NCBI RefSeq assembly: GCF_902806265.1
Contig: NZ_CADCVZ010000036.1
Coordinates: forward strand, 1-64,000
Direction of reading: 5' to 3'
Length of the DNA stretch: 64,000 nt
DNA from: an uncultured Sphingomonas sp.
GTDB lineage: Bacteria > Pseudomonadota > Alphaproteobacteria > Sphingomonadales > Sphingomonadaceae
Shown: positions 13,842-19,310 of the stretch, piece by piece
How the letters are laid out: each line of letters starts with the position of its first letter
Position numbering within the stretch: the stretch's first letter is position 1
The notes under the pieces: generated by a model
The model's database searches: none
Told to the model about the DNA's origin: nothing
The model's input: the letters and a program-made list of their open reading frames with translations, nothing else
Translations under genes and position numbers: made by a program

Positions 13842-14573
13842 TTACTCGCGGTTGCCCATGAAGTTCAGCAGGAAGGTGAACATGTTGATGAAGTCGAGAT
13901 AGAGGTTCAGCGCCCCCATGATCACGACCTTGCCCATCATGTCCGTGCCGGCCACGTAGGCGTACATGCTCTTGATCTTCTGCGTGTCGTAGGCGGTCAG
14001 GCCCGCGAACAGTAGCACGCCGATCGCGCTGATCGCCAGCTGCATCGCGGTGGACTGCAGGAAGATGTTGATGACCATCGCCACCAGCAGGCCGACCACG
14101 CCCATGATCAGGAAGGTGCCCATGCCGGACAGGTCCTTCTTGGTCGTGTAGCCCCACAGCGACAGGCCCAGGAAGGCGGCCGCCACCGCGAAGAAGGTCT
14201 GCGCGATGCTCGCCCCGGTGAACACCAGGAAGATCGACGACATCGACAGGCCCATTACGAAGGCGAAGGCCCAGAACAGCCCCTGCAGCGCCCCGGTCGA
14301 CAGCCGGTTCATGCCGAAGCTCATCACCATCACAAACGCCAAGGGTGCGAACATGATGACCCAGCGCAGCGGGGTCGACAGCACCTGCTCGGCCATGCCG
14401 CTCGACGCGAACAGCAGGGCGACGATGCCGGTCAGCAGCACGCCGGAGGCCATGTAGTTGTAAACGGACAGCATGTAGGACCGCAGGCCCGCGTCGCGGG
14501 CGGCGCGCGGAACACCGACCGACGGTGCGGCGGTCGGCGCAGCGGTCGTGCGCGGGTCAGACCAGTTCTGCAT
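13842..14573 (-). CDS. Bax inhibitor-1/YccA family membrane protein
   Basis: 243 aa, multiple TM helices, GVLLFAGLTAYDTQKIKSMY and ALNLYLDFINMFTFLLNFMGNRE. Confidence 0.95.
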   Translation of the reverse strand: MQNWSDPRTTAAPTAAPSVGVPRAARDAGLRSYMLSVYNYMASGVLLTGIVALLFASSGMAEQVLSTPLRWVIMFAPLAFVMVMSFGMNRLSTGALQGLFWAFAFVMGLSMSSIFLVFTGASIAQTFFAVAAAFLGLSLWGYTTKKDLSGMGTFLIMGVVGLLVAMVINIFLQSTAMQLAISAIGVLLFAGLTAYDTQKIKSMYAYVAGTDMMGKVVIMGALNLYLDFINMFTFLLNFMGNRE

Positions 14574-14640
14574 TTCTAACTCCTTGCCGACGAGCCAACG
14601 CGCCCGTCACAAAGACATATATCGTCGGGAGCCCGATTAG

Positions 14641-14682
14641 TTTCAAGTAAAACCGGACGCGAAACGACCTACTTTCAAGTAA
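14641..14682. promoter_or_regulatory. Repeated TTTCAAGTAA motif in the BI-1/DUF350 divergent region
   Basis: TTTCAAGTAA at 14641-14650 and 14673-14682 (32-bp spacing); the second copy is in the near-palindrome TACTTtcAAGTA. Confidence 0.5.
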
Positions 14683-14779
14683 GTAGATGCTCGGCGGCCG
14701 ACGGCTCGGCAGAAACCGTTTGCGCGGCCCGTTTGGCGCCTTTAACCAACAACGCTTCGAGGGGCCGGGGGGGCAGGTG

Positions 14780-15187
14780 ATGGTGGCGTATTTCACGGGG
14801 GCTTTGCCGCACTTTTTCGCCTATTTCGCGTCGGCCCTGGCGCTCGCGGCGGGATTTATGCTGCTGTACGTGTTCGTCACCCCGCACCGCGAGTTCGCGC
14901 TGATCCGCGAAGGCAACAGCGCCGCCGCCCTGCAGCTGACCGGCACCTTTCTCGGCTTCGCGATTCCTGTCGCGGTGGTGATCGGCCATTCGGTCAGCAT
15001 TCCGGACATGCTGCTGTGGGGCGCGGTCGCCGCGCTGGTGCAGCTGGCGGTGTTCGCCCTCATTGCCCGGCTGCTGTTCAAGGGCATTTCGGACCGGATC
15101 ACCCAGCGCTGCGCCGCGTCGGGTATCTTCGTCGGCGGCATGGGTCTGGGCGTGGGCGTGCTCCAGGCCGCCTGCATGGTCCCCTGA
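14780..15187 (+). CDS. DUF350 family membrane protein (YjfL-like)
   Basis: FFAYFASALALAAGFMLLYVFVTPHREFALIREGNSAAALQLTGTFLGFAIPVAVVIGHSVSIPDMLLWG...ASGIFVGGMGLGVGVLQAACM. Confidence 0.9.
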   Translation: MVAYFTGALPHFFAYFASALALAAGFMLLYVFVTPHREFALIREGNSAAALQLTGTFLGFAIPVAVVIGHSVSIPDMLLWGAVAALVQLAVFALIARLLFKGISDRITQRCAASGIFVGGMGLGVGVLQAACMVP

Positions 15188-15204
15188 GCGGAGCGTCCGG
15201 CCCC

Positions 15205-15594
15205 ATGCGCAAGCCTCTTCCGATCACGGGCGCGGTCGCCGCGGCGCTGCTCGCCCTGCCCGGCTGCTCCACCCGCAACGAGTGGGACGACGACTATGTC
15301 GCGACCGGCGACACCGCGGTGTGCGTCGACCGAGACGGCCGCCGCATCGACGACGATCATTGCGATCGCCGCCGCGGCGGAGCCAGCTTCTTCTTCCTGC
15401 GGACTGGCGCCCCAATCCCCTACTATGGCGACTCGGTCCGCAATCCCCGCTACGCCCGCTACGGCTCCTACAACGGGACTTGGGGCACCAGCTATGCCCG
15501 GGCGCCTCGCGCCACCCAGATGAGTCGTTCGGCCGCCGTGTCGCGCGGCGGGCTCGGCGCGACCGGGCGGGGCTTCGGCGGCCGCGGCGGCTGA
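15205..15594 (+). CDS. Lipoprotein, YgiB/YjfM (DUF1190)-like
   Basis: Lipobox LLALPGC; C-terminal TQMSRSAAVSRGGLGATGRGFGGRGG resembles the Gly/Arg tail of YgiB-type proteins; sits directly upstream of a YgiC/YjfC-like gene. Confidence 0.6.
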   Translation: MRKPLPITGAVAAALLALPGCSTRNEWDDDYVATGDTAVCVDRDGRRIDDDHCDRRRGGASFFFLRTGAPIPYYGDSVRNPRYARYGSYNGTWGTSYARAPRATQMSRSAAVSRGGLGATGRGFGGRGG

Positions 15595-16739
15595 TGCAGC
15601 GTCGGACGATCGCTCCGCGGCCCGGCTGGCAGCGGATCGTCGAAGAACAGGGCCTCATCTGGCACACCGGCGACGACGGTCAGCCCTATTGGGACGAGAG
15701 CGGCTGCTACGTCTTCACCCTGGCCGAGATCGAGCAGCTCGAGGCCGCGACCGAAGCGGTCTACGATCTGTTCCTCAAGGCCGGCGACCGCATCGTCAAG
15801 GACGCGGCCCTCCTGTCCTCCCTCGGCATCCCCGACTTCTGCCACGCCGCCATCCGCAGCGAATGGAAGGGCGACCGCCCAGCGCTCGACTATGGCCGCT
15901 TCGACTTCGGCTGGGACGGCACAGGTGAGCCCAAGCTGTTCGAGTTCAACTGCGACACCCCCACCGCCATGCTGGAGGCCGGCGCGATCCAGTGGGATTG
16001 GAAGGAGCAGTGCTTTCCGCAAGCCGACCAGTTCACCAGTCTCCACGACAAGCTGGTCGAACGCTGGCGCTTCATGGCGCCCGACTTGAGCGGGCGGATC
16101 TGGTTCGCCCATGCCGACGACGCCAGCGGCGAGGACACGCTCACCACCACCTACATGCGCGACCTCGCCGAGCAGGCCGGACTCGAGACGCGCGGCCTGC
16201 TGATCGACGAGATCGGCCTCGACGCCGCCGGCCGTATCGTCGACGGCCAGGACCATCTGATCACCGCCATCTTCAAGCTTTACCCGTGGGAATGGATCGT
16301 CGCCGAGGAGTTCGGCCCGGCGATCGTCCGCAACCTGCCGACCACCCTGTGGATCGAGCCCATCTGGAAGATGCTGTGGAGCAACAAGGCGGTGCTGGCG
16401 CTGCTCCACGACATGTTCCCGCGCCACCCGAACCTGCTCCCCGCCTCCCTGGAGCCGGGCAAGGTCGGCCCAAGCTACGTCGCCAAGCCGATCCTCGCCC
16501 GCGAAGGCGCCAACATCGAGCTGGTCCGCGACGGACAGGTGCTGGCCCAGTCGGAAGGCGGTTACCAGGCGGTGCCCCGCGTCTACCAGCAGCTCTATCC
16601 GCTGCGCGACTTCGGCCGCGGCTATCCCGTGCTCGGCTCGTGGGTCGTCGGCGGGGAAGCGGCGGGCCTCGGCATCCGCGAGGACGGGCTGATCACCGGC
16701 AACCGCGCCCGCTTCGTTCCGCACATCATCGAAGGCTGA
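15594..16739 (+). CDS. Glutathionylspermidine synthase family ATP-grasp protein (YjfC/YgiC-like)
   Basis: YGRFDFGWDGTGEPKLFEFNCDTPTAMLEAGAIQWDWKEQ, IFKLYPWEWIVAEEFG, TLWIEPIWKMLWSNKAVLALL; start overlaps the upstream stop. Confidence 0.92.
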   Translation: MQRRTIAPRPGWQRIVEEQGLIWHTGDDGQPYWDESGCYVFTLAEIEQLEAATEAVYDLFLKAGDRIVKDAALLSSLGIPDFCHAAIRSEWKGDRPALDYGRFDFGWDGTGEPKLFEFNCDTPTAMLEAGAIQWDWKEQCFPQADQFTSLHDKLVERWRFMAPDLSGRIWFAHADDASGEDTLTTTYMRDLAEQAGLETRGLLIDEIGLDAAGRIVDGQDHLITAIFKLYPWEWIVAEEFGPAIVRNLPTTLWIEPIWKMLWSNKAVLALLHDMFPRHPNLLPASLEPGKVGPSYVAKPILAREGANIELVRDGQVLAQSEGGYQAVPRVYQQLYPLRDFGRGYPVLGSWVVGGEAAGLGIREDGLITGNRARFVPHIIEG

Positions 16740-16742
16740 CCC

Positions 16743-17159
16743 ATGAAGAAGCTGCAGGCTGCCACCGACACGCTCAAGGAGCTGGCGCTGATCTACTTCG
16801 CCATCCTTCTTGCCGCGTCCGTCCTGTTCATGGTGCTGGAAGCGCGGACCTTCGCCGAAAGCTTCTACTGGGCCGCGACCACCGCCACCTCGACCGGCTA
16901 CGGCGACGTGACTCCCAAGACCGTGGCTGGCCAGCTCCTTGCCGCCGTGCTGATGCACATCTCAATCTTCGGCATCGCGCCGCTGATCATCGTCCGGCTG
17001 ATCGACCGGCTGAACGAGAACCGCGACGCCTTCACCCACGAGGAACAGGTCCACATCCTGGAGGGCATCGCCCGCATCGAGCAGCGGCTACAGCGGCTGG
17101 AGGACGGCAGCGAGCGTGGGCCCGAGGCCCCGCCCGCTTATGCCAGGATCGATCCCTGA
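16743..17159 (+). CDS. Two-TM potassium channel family protein
   Basis: TATSTGYGDVTPKT selectivity filter between two hydrophobic helices; C-terminal helical tail. Confidence 0.9.
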   Translation: MKKLQAATDTLKELALIYFAILLAASVLFMVLEARTFAESFYWAATTATSTGYGDVTPKTVAGQLLAAVLMHISIFGIAPLIIVRLIDRLNENRDAFTHEEQVHILEGIARIEQRLQRLEDGSERGPEAPPAYARIDP

Positions 17160-17186: not shown

Positions 17187-19310
17187 TCAGGCGGGTGCCG
17201 CCAGGTTCGCTCCTCCCGCCAGAACGGTGTCGATCTCGGCGGCGCTCTGCGGCATGCCGTAGAACCACCCTTGCAAGAATTCGCACCCGGCCATGGCCAG
17301 GATGGCGGCGTGGTGCTCGGTCTCTACCCCCTCGGCCAGGATCGGGATCTTGAGCGCGCTGCCCAGCGCCACCACCGCCAGCGCGACGTCCGCCGCTTCC
17401 GGGCTGCTGACCACCGGCTCGACGAACGAGCGGTCGAGCTTGACCTTGTCGAACTCGAACCGGCGGAGATAGCCGACGCTGGCATAGCCGGTGCCGAAAT
17501 CGTCCAGCGCGACCTTGATGCCGTGGCGGCGGAGGTCGCGGATCACCTCCTCCGCGGCATCGGGACGGCGCAGCAGGTAGGTTTCGGTGATCTCGAACTC
17601 GAGCCGCTCGGGCGGAAAGCCGCACTCGTCGAGCGTCCGCAGCACGTCATGGACCAGCATGCGGTCCCAGAACTGAGCCGGGGACAGGTTCACCGACAAC
17701 AGGAACGGCCAGTCGCGCGCCCGCAGGCAGGCCTCCCGCAGGACAAAGCGCCCGAGTTCGACGATCGCGCCGCTATCCTCGGCGATGGGGATGAACAAGT
17801 CCGGTGAGATGGCGCCGCGGGTCGGGTGGCTCCATCGCGCCAGCGCTTCCACGCCGCTGATCTGGCCGCTGCGCGAGCGCACGATCGGCTGGAACGCCAC
17901 AGAAATCTCGCCCGCCGCGATCGCCCGGCGGAGATCGCTTTCCAGCTCCCGCCGCTCGCGCCGGCCGTCATTGAGGGTTGGCGAGTAGAGGCACCAATTG
18001 TCGCGGCCGCGCGACTTAGCCGCGTACATCGCCACATCGGCGCGGCGAACCACGTCCGCATACTCCAGGCCGGCGCCTCCGGCGATCCCGACGCTGGCTC
18101 CGACCAGGATCGGCTCGGCCTGGAACTCGTGCGGCTCCCGCACCGCCTCGATGATCGCGGTGGCGGCCGCCTGATGGTCCATCGCCTCACCCCCATGTTC
18201 CCAGGCCACGAAGAACTCGTCTCCGCCGGGGCGGGCCAGATAAGCGTGGGGCGGCAGGGCGCGACGCAGCCGCTCGCTGGTCCGCCGCAGCAGCAGGTCG
18301 CCGGTGGCATGGCCGAAGCTGTCGTTGACTTCCTTGAAGCCGTCGAGGTCGATCACCAGCACGCTGTAGACCGCGTCCCGCCCGGCCAGCTTGACCAACC
18401 GCTCGTTGAAAGCTCGCCGGTTAGGCAGTCCGGTCAGCGCATCGTGCCGGGCCAGGTGCTGCGCCTTGGCCTCGCTCGCCTGGAGCTCGCGCAGGTCGGT
18501 CGAGGCGTTGCGCAGGACGATCGTTCCAAGTCCAAGAAGTACCAGCACGAACCCAGCGAGGATCGGCATGCTGCCGTGTCGCAGCTCTGTCCCAGGGGTG
18601 GTCGGCGCCCAGGCATAATAGCCGATGGTCGAACCTGCGTAGGTCCGGACCGGCACAGCTGCCTCGGCTGGATCGGGTCGGCGAATGAGGCGGAGCGCTG
18701 CGATCTGGGCGGCCTGTTTGGTGTTCAGCGCCAGCTGCTCGTCCACTTCCTTGGCGACGACCATGTAGCGGCGCGGCGCGCCGCGAGGCAGGGCGCTGCC
18801 CGGGCTCCGCAGGATGCGGTGAACCGCGAACAGCAGCGGGCCGTGCGCACCGACCGACAGGCCACCGACCGAAATCTCCTTGCCCGCCGTCTGCGCTGCG
18901 GCCGTGCTCAGTGCCTGCCGGTAGTCGCGCCCCAGGTGCCGGTCCGCGGCATCGCCTGTCCGCCTGCCGTGGACTGCGGCGTAGATGGTGCGCCCCTGCT
19001 CATCGACGATGAAGTTGGCCTCGTATCCATTGGCCTCATGCAGATAGAGGCCGAACTGCTCGTCCAGCCAGCCGGCGTCGAAGCCGGTGACCGCATGCGC
19101 GGCCGCGTCGTCCCACCGGGCATATTCCCGCAGAACCTTCTGCAACCCGTCGATCTGGCCGGCCAGGGCCAGGGCGACCACCCGCTCCTCACGGTGGCGC
19201 TCCCGCGCGTCCTGCTGGTGGGTCATCGCGTACAGACCGGCGATGAGCGCCGTACTTGCGCTCAGCAGGATAAGGGTGATCGGGACCAGGAACCGCTTAT
19301 AGAAACTCAC
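17187..19310 (-). CDS. CHASE4-GGDEF-EAL bifunctional c-di-GMP enzyme
   Basis: CHASE4-like periplasmic region, RPGGDEFFVAWE, GVEALARWSHP, IAIDDFGTGYAS-type motif; 707 aa. Confidence 0.93.
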   Translation of the reverse strand: MSFYKRFLVPITLILLSASTALIAGLYAMTHQQDARERHREERVVALALAGQIDGLQKVLREYARWDDAAAHAVTGFDAGWLDEQFGLYLHEANGYEANFIVDEQGRTIYAAVHGRRTGDAADRHLGRDYRQALSTAAAQTAGKEISVGGLSVGAHGPLLFAVHRILRSPGSALPRGAPRRYMVVAKEVDEQLALNTKQAAQIAALRLIRRPDPAEAAVPVRTYAGSTIGYYAWAPTTPGTELRHGSMPILAGFVLVLLGLGTIVLRNASTDLRELQASEAKAQHLARHDALTGLPNRRAFNERLVKLAGRDAVYSVLVIDLDGFKEVNDSFGHATGDLLLRRTSERLRRALPPHAYLARPGGDEFFVAWEHGGEAMDHQAAATAIIEAVREPHEFQAEPILVGASVGIAGGAGLEYADVVRRADVAMYAAKSRGRDNWCLYSPTLNDGRRERRELESDLRRAIAAGEISVAFQPIVRSRSGQISGVEALARWSHPTRGAISPDLFIPIAEDSGAIVELGRFVLREACLRARDWPFLLSVNLSPAQFWDRMLVHDVLRTLDECGFPPERLEFEITETYLLRRPDAAEEVIRDLRRHGIKVALDDFGTGYASVGYLRRFEFDKVKLDRSFVEPVVSSPEAADVALAVVALGSALKIPILAEGVETEHHAAILAMAGCEFLQGWFYGMPQSAAEIDTVLAGGANLAAPA

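Follow-up and report, generated by a model that had tools for sequence, protein, structure and literature searches.

A conserved RGG[FLIY]G tail motif in exported proteins encoded beside YgiC/YjfC-type ligases, with a candidate role for the tail in a compact sphingomonad variant of a known operon class

Operons that combine an ATP-grasp enzyme, a K+ channel, and DUF350 and DUF1190 proteins have been described around PspA, and among the third group of these operons variants without the CesT/Tir-PspA dyad were described as well (Ravi et al. 2024, mSystems; PMC11237479). The locus analyzed here lies in a window of 64,000 nucleotides (the whole stretch of DNA under study), which belongs to a single contig of a 2.33-Mb genome in 64 contigs, and it is a compact variant of this third-group, PspA-associated class. 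Gene content and relatives place the genome among the sphingomonads. The likeness consists of a glutathionylspermidine synthetase (GSP synthetase)-like ATP-grasp enzyme, a four-TM DUF350 protein, a lipoprotein, and a potassium channel found together. Unlike the described operons, the locus lacks the CesT/Tir-PspA dyad, DUF2170, and DUF2491; its lipoprotein falls outside Pfam DUF1190, and its channel is only 138 amino acids long and has no ligand-sensing domain. YjfI, PspA, and YjfK gave no match near the locus, and a PspA-family gene is located on another contig of the same genome. The gene set is therefore a variant of a known operon class, and the C-terminal tail motif is the main new result of this study.

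The yjfIJKLMC and ygiBC loci of E. coli provide a second point of comparison. They share with the window locus the DUF350 protein, the RGG[FY]G-tailed lipoprotein, and the ligase, in the same order as in yjfLMC; the ligases are approximately 40% identical, and the window locus adds a K+ channel. Kinship to the yjfL-yjfM-yjfC and ygiB-ygiC families had been proposed in an earlier note on this DNA, and the tail in common supports it. E. coli uses spermidine, whereas no spermidine synthase domain (PF01564) was detected in the genome containing the window. The bifunctional glutathionylspermidine synthetase/amidase Gss resembles the window enzyme in its synthetase fold and ATP/metal residues but differs in possessing an amidase domain and in carrying DSAS where the window enzyme has a family-specific DTPT, and gss in E. 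coli has no RGGFG-tail partner alongside.

Table 1. Features of the locus, and a parallel module in congeners
Feature	Position	Strand	Evidence or remark
BI-1 (Bax inhibitor-1) homologue	13842..14573	-	PF01027, E=3.5e-59; divergent neighbor, outside the module
Near-palindrome CTACTTTCAAGTAAGTAG, BI-1/DUF350 intergenic region	14669..14686		Possible operator
DUF350 (YjfL-type), four-TM inner-membrane protein	14780..15187	+	PF03994, E=3.2e-33
Lipoprotein: small folded domain and predicted disordered RGGLG...RGG C-terminal tail	15205..15594	+	Lipobox LPGC-21; no Pfam match
RGGLG motif (15544-15558) and 11-residue tail ATGRGFGGRGG-COOH	15544..15591	+	Proposed recognition and acceptor peptide
Stand-alone GSP_synth ATP-grasp enzyme, predicted YgiC/YjfC-type peptide-polyamine ligase	15594..16739	+	PF03738, E=1.9e-134
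Two-TM K+ channel, filter STGYGD, short C-terminal helix	16743..17159	+	PF07885 (Ion_trans_2), E=8.9e-13
Parallel module (second group of Ravi et al. 2024)	L119 4291-7617, L120, L121, L122		Congeners G002, G048, G028, G031

The four co-directional genes and the divergent BI-1 gene are present as the earlier note had described them (Table 1), with Pfam matches for all of them except the lipoprotein. The stop/start coupling it had pointed to is likewise found, the lipoprotein and ATP-grasp genes sharing one base (TGATG, with the ATG at 15594), and the two-TM potassium channel carries its K+ filter in a pore loop between two TM helices. The DUF350 protein is modeled by AlphaFold2 as all-helical (mean pLDDT 87), and a fold search of this model against the PDB gave no match. 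Rfam, sigma-70, and terminator scans also returned no match.

Conservation of the gene set exceeds chance, because the ATP-grasp, full-length DUF350, and lipoprotein genes are each confined, within the genus, to one identical set of 8 of 71 genomes. The K+ channel gene adjoins the ATP-grasp gene in all eight of these carriers. It stands beside the ligase gene in 9/9 related sphingomonad loci in which a channel was detected, but this placement is seen in few loci elsewhere; in Deinococcus, an ion transporter adjoins the ligase. The expectation that the genes would keep company past close relatives thus holds for the lipoprotein and ATP-grasp enzyme, which are found together in about ten phyla, and only partly for the channel, with DUF350 found in about half of the loci (46/91). 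Since DUF350 was found in no more than this share of loci and the channel is encountered in few beyond the sphingomonads, the core pair is the ligase and the tailed protein.

The ATP-grasp protein is aligned over positions 1-371 of the 371 in PF03738 as its sole domain, and an N-terminal CHAP amidase domain is absent (NCBIfam PRK10507, 158 bits against a cutoff of 882), in agreement with its earlier description as a stand-alone synthetase. Its best PDB matches are YgiC (7uk8, E=1.3e-88) and YjfC (7uk6, E=2e-81). Residues R316, D318, E330, N332, K498, K533, and R538 of Gss, which bind ATP, metal, and the activated carboxylate, align with R102, D104, E117, N119, K265, K298, and R303, while Gss S335 and S337 correspond to T122 and T124. 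Since the family's ATP/metal and substrate residues are present, the window enzyme is predicted to be a YgiC/YjfC-type peptide-polyamine ligase. RefSeq names both E. coli enzymes peptide--spermidine ligases, and a 2023 paper by Pederick, cited in PMC12568646, reportedly describes this activity for the two, in agreement with those names. Because the E. coli enzymes are so named, the chemistry is not wholly open, and the view that these families lack a settled biochemical role is outdated. We know of no biochemical result linking any of these ligases to the tail of a protein. YgiC is without Gss activity (PMC12506659); a statement naming the physiological peptide substrate of either E. coli enzyme was not found in the literature searched.

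The lipoprotein is confidently modeled by AlphaFold2 over approximately residues 30 to 105, and its tail (residues 109 to 129, pLDDT<50) is predicted to be disordered. A search of Pfam gave no match, the cutoff of DUF1190 (PF06693) not being reached, and a fold search against the PDB also gave none. Consequently, the label "YgiB-like" given to this protein earlier is not readable from Pfam, although a link to YgiB does stand through the common tail and iterated profiles. The protein has the trait that marks the YgiB type, being an exported protein encoded beside the ligase with an RGG[FYL]G C-terminal tail.

The tail can be followed well beyond the sphingomonads. We compared 90 loci from about ten phyla, gathered through the ATP-grasp enzyme or drawn from congeners and E. 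coli, and defined the strict motif as RGG[FLIY]G no more than 30 residues from the C terminus of the open reading frame (ORF) directly upstream of the ATP-grasp gene. It is present in 79/90 loci, compared with 2 of the remaining 7,980 ORFs of these loci, and a looser form is present in 88/90 compared with 20/7,980; these counts do not represent independent events, because the loci are phylogenetically related. Conservation of this five-residue motif spans phyla, and elsewhere it hardly occurs. The sequence that follows it is mostly 7 to 17 residues long and is 36% Gly and 34% Ser (70% for the two); the distance from motif to end varies, mostly between 7 and 26 residues. The last residue is Ser in 41 proteins, Gly in 35, Glu in 8, and Ala in 2. 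At the N terminus, each of the 88 tailed proteins has a lipobox or a hydrophobic segment, and their genes mostly abut or overlap that of the ligase. Outside the tail, they fall into seven groups, one of 70 members, with no detectable similarity between groups, and a Pfam scan of ten of them found a match only for classical DUF1190 members. E. coli YgiB (TRGGFG...SMGG) and YjfM (SRGGYG...HWGG) both carry the motif, which names a concrete substrate candidate for YgiC and YjfC in the neighboring protein.

A set of plasmid loci, fetched after the motif had been defined and only partly independent because some genera overlap, contains the strict motif in 11/15 cases, with three degenerate forms and one locus without a motif. 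In two of these loci (L162 and L166, from Paraburkholderia and Sulfitobacter), the tail gene lies downstream of the ligase gene, and the linkage is therefore not a mere matter of gene order. The strict motif is absent at three more distant homologues (<27% identity). As sampling was based on the ATP-grasp enzyme, the view of RGGFG tails without a ligase is confined to one genus and a small number of regions. A DNA pattern for the motif gave 46 matches in the genome containing the window against 29 in a reversed control, a test that is blunted by GC-rich DNA. Within the literature searched, which did not extend to key subscription papers, no mention of RGGFG with a lipoprotein was found. Two homologues that are 22 to 26% identical (L170, 2111-2371, Brevibacillus; L169, 1126-2295, Leptolyngbya) have nearby an exported protein with a Gly/Ser-rich C terminus and no RGGFG. 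Separately, D217 of the ATP-grasp enzyme (window positions 16242-16244) is Asp in 78/80 ligases with RGG tails and in 2/7 with HGG, SGG, or KGG; its apparent tracking of R versus non-R motifs is only a lead, since the few non-R loci have common ancestry.

The genome also indicates which amines may be at hand. An ornithine decarboxylase (ODC)-type decarboxylase gene adjoins a homologue of deoxyhypusine synthase (SpeY-type, PF01916) at about 31600-34100 of contig C14 of this genome (G000), and both families are present in 17/17 congeners tested. SpeY-type homologues make homospermidine in other bacteria (PMC10407285), and a homospermidine pathway is accordingly predicted here from the gene content. 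With an ODC and a SpeY homologue present and spermidine synthase absent, the amine used is probably homospermidine or putrescine. Two other assignments were set aside: a search for an HSS-type homospermidine synthase through PF03435 gave weak matches only, of which those inspected were not HSS, the SpeY-type PF01916 protein being found instead, and a PF02784 match taken for LysA has lysine/ornithine decarboxylases as its closest solved structures.

We propose, with a probability of about 0.45, that the lipoprotein is tagged with a polyamine by its own module, whose ligase would amidate the C terminus before export. The earlier note had offered the lipoprotein or the channel as a possible ligase substrate, and a specific C-terminal motif now stands behind the lipoprotein as the likely one. 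The cytosolic ATP-grasp enzyme would recognize RGG[F/L]G within the disordered tail once the lipoprotein has been synthesized, use ATP to phosphorylate the C-terminal carboxylate of the tail, and couple a polyamine there through an amide bond. The amine would probably be homospermidine or putrescine in this organism and spermidine in E. coli. Export is predicted for the tail, and the enzyme has no signal; ligation would therefore have to precede translocation. The capped lipoprotein would then be exported and lipidated, displaying a polycationic tail in the periplasm or on the outer surface of the inner membrane. There it might bind anionic envelope polymers or modulate DUF350 and the K+ channel. 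With only slightly less probability, an unrecognized modification is widespread: RGG[FLIY]G-tailed exported proteins of about ten phyla, including E. coli, would be polyamine-capped by the neighboring ligase before export, and YgiC and YjfC would have YgiB and YjfM as their natural substrates. If true, polyamines on envelope proteins would be a regular bacterial modification.

A module in four congeners (Table 1) parallels this arrangement. It encodes a DUF4178/zinc ribbon protein, a small one-TM protein ending in GPTHK, a half-length DUF350 protein, and a 7TM-fused spermidine synthase (SpeE), with an FAD amine oxidase in addition where seen. Both modules combine DUF350, a small membrane protein whose C-terminal end is conserved, and a polyamine enzyme; in the parallel one, however, an aminopropyltransferase replaces the ligase and the small protein lacks RGGFG. 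The conserved C-terminal Lys of the GPTHK protein could be an aminopropyl acceptor.

The tail need not be the acceptor, and two readings give it another role or none. The ligase might make a small soluble peptide-polyamine conjugate resembling glutathionylspermidine, which the lipoprotein, DUF350, and the channel would sense or move, or these proteins might respond to membrane stress. The fold and catalytic residues shared with Gss are consistent with such a product, as is the activity on peptides reported for YgiC and YjfC; yet YgiC lacks Gss activity, the RGGFG tail is left unexplained, and the genes neighboring Gss-type and distant homologues encode no such tail, which makes this reading doubtful. 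That the terminal residue and the motif-to-end distance vary, the motif being more conserved than the C-terminal residue, speaks against the tail as substrate, and the conserved tail could instead be a docking or sorting signal. Specifically, it might serve, unmodified, for docking to the ligase, to DUF350, or to an assembly partner, with the ligase acting on another protein or peptide. The tailed protein, however, is present in nearly all loci and DUF350 was found in about half, which suggests the ligase as partner of the tail, and the ends are almost always Ser, Gly, or Glu; we regard an unmodified tail as unlikely, slightly more so than a soluble product.

The earlier note itself had read the locus as an ion-homeostasis and envelope-stress module of five genes, BI-1 among them, and BI-1 is indeed divergent from DUF350 in 7/8 carriers of the genus. 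Nevertheless, BI-1 is present in 67/71 congeners, including 53/53 good genomes, compared with 8/71 for the module, and no joint gain or loss of BI-1 with the other genes was found. BI-1 directly adjoins ligT, the gene for a 2'-5' RNA ligase, in eight module-free regions; the module lies between the two in seven carriers, and in the remaining carrier, G023, the module is located elsewhere and BI-1 still adjoins ligT. BI-1 is a near-universal neighbor rather than a member, and the five-gene reading is highly improbable: the module is gained or lost as a block, for which BI-1 marks only the landing site.

Two further observations concern this site. A CHASE4-GGDEF-EAL gene (window positions 17187-19310) lies between the K+ channel gene and ligT in the window and in G067 only, ligT following directly after the channel gene in the other carriers. 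The near-palindrome listed in Table 1 occurs once per genome and is found in the same place in the carriers G067, G019, and G020 (as CTACTTACATGTGAGTAG) and in the noncarrier G048; it looks like an operator or, in G048, a scar of module loss.
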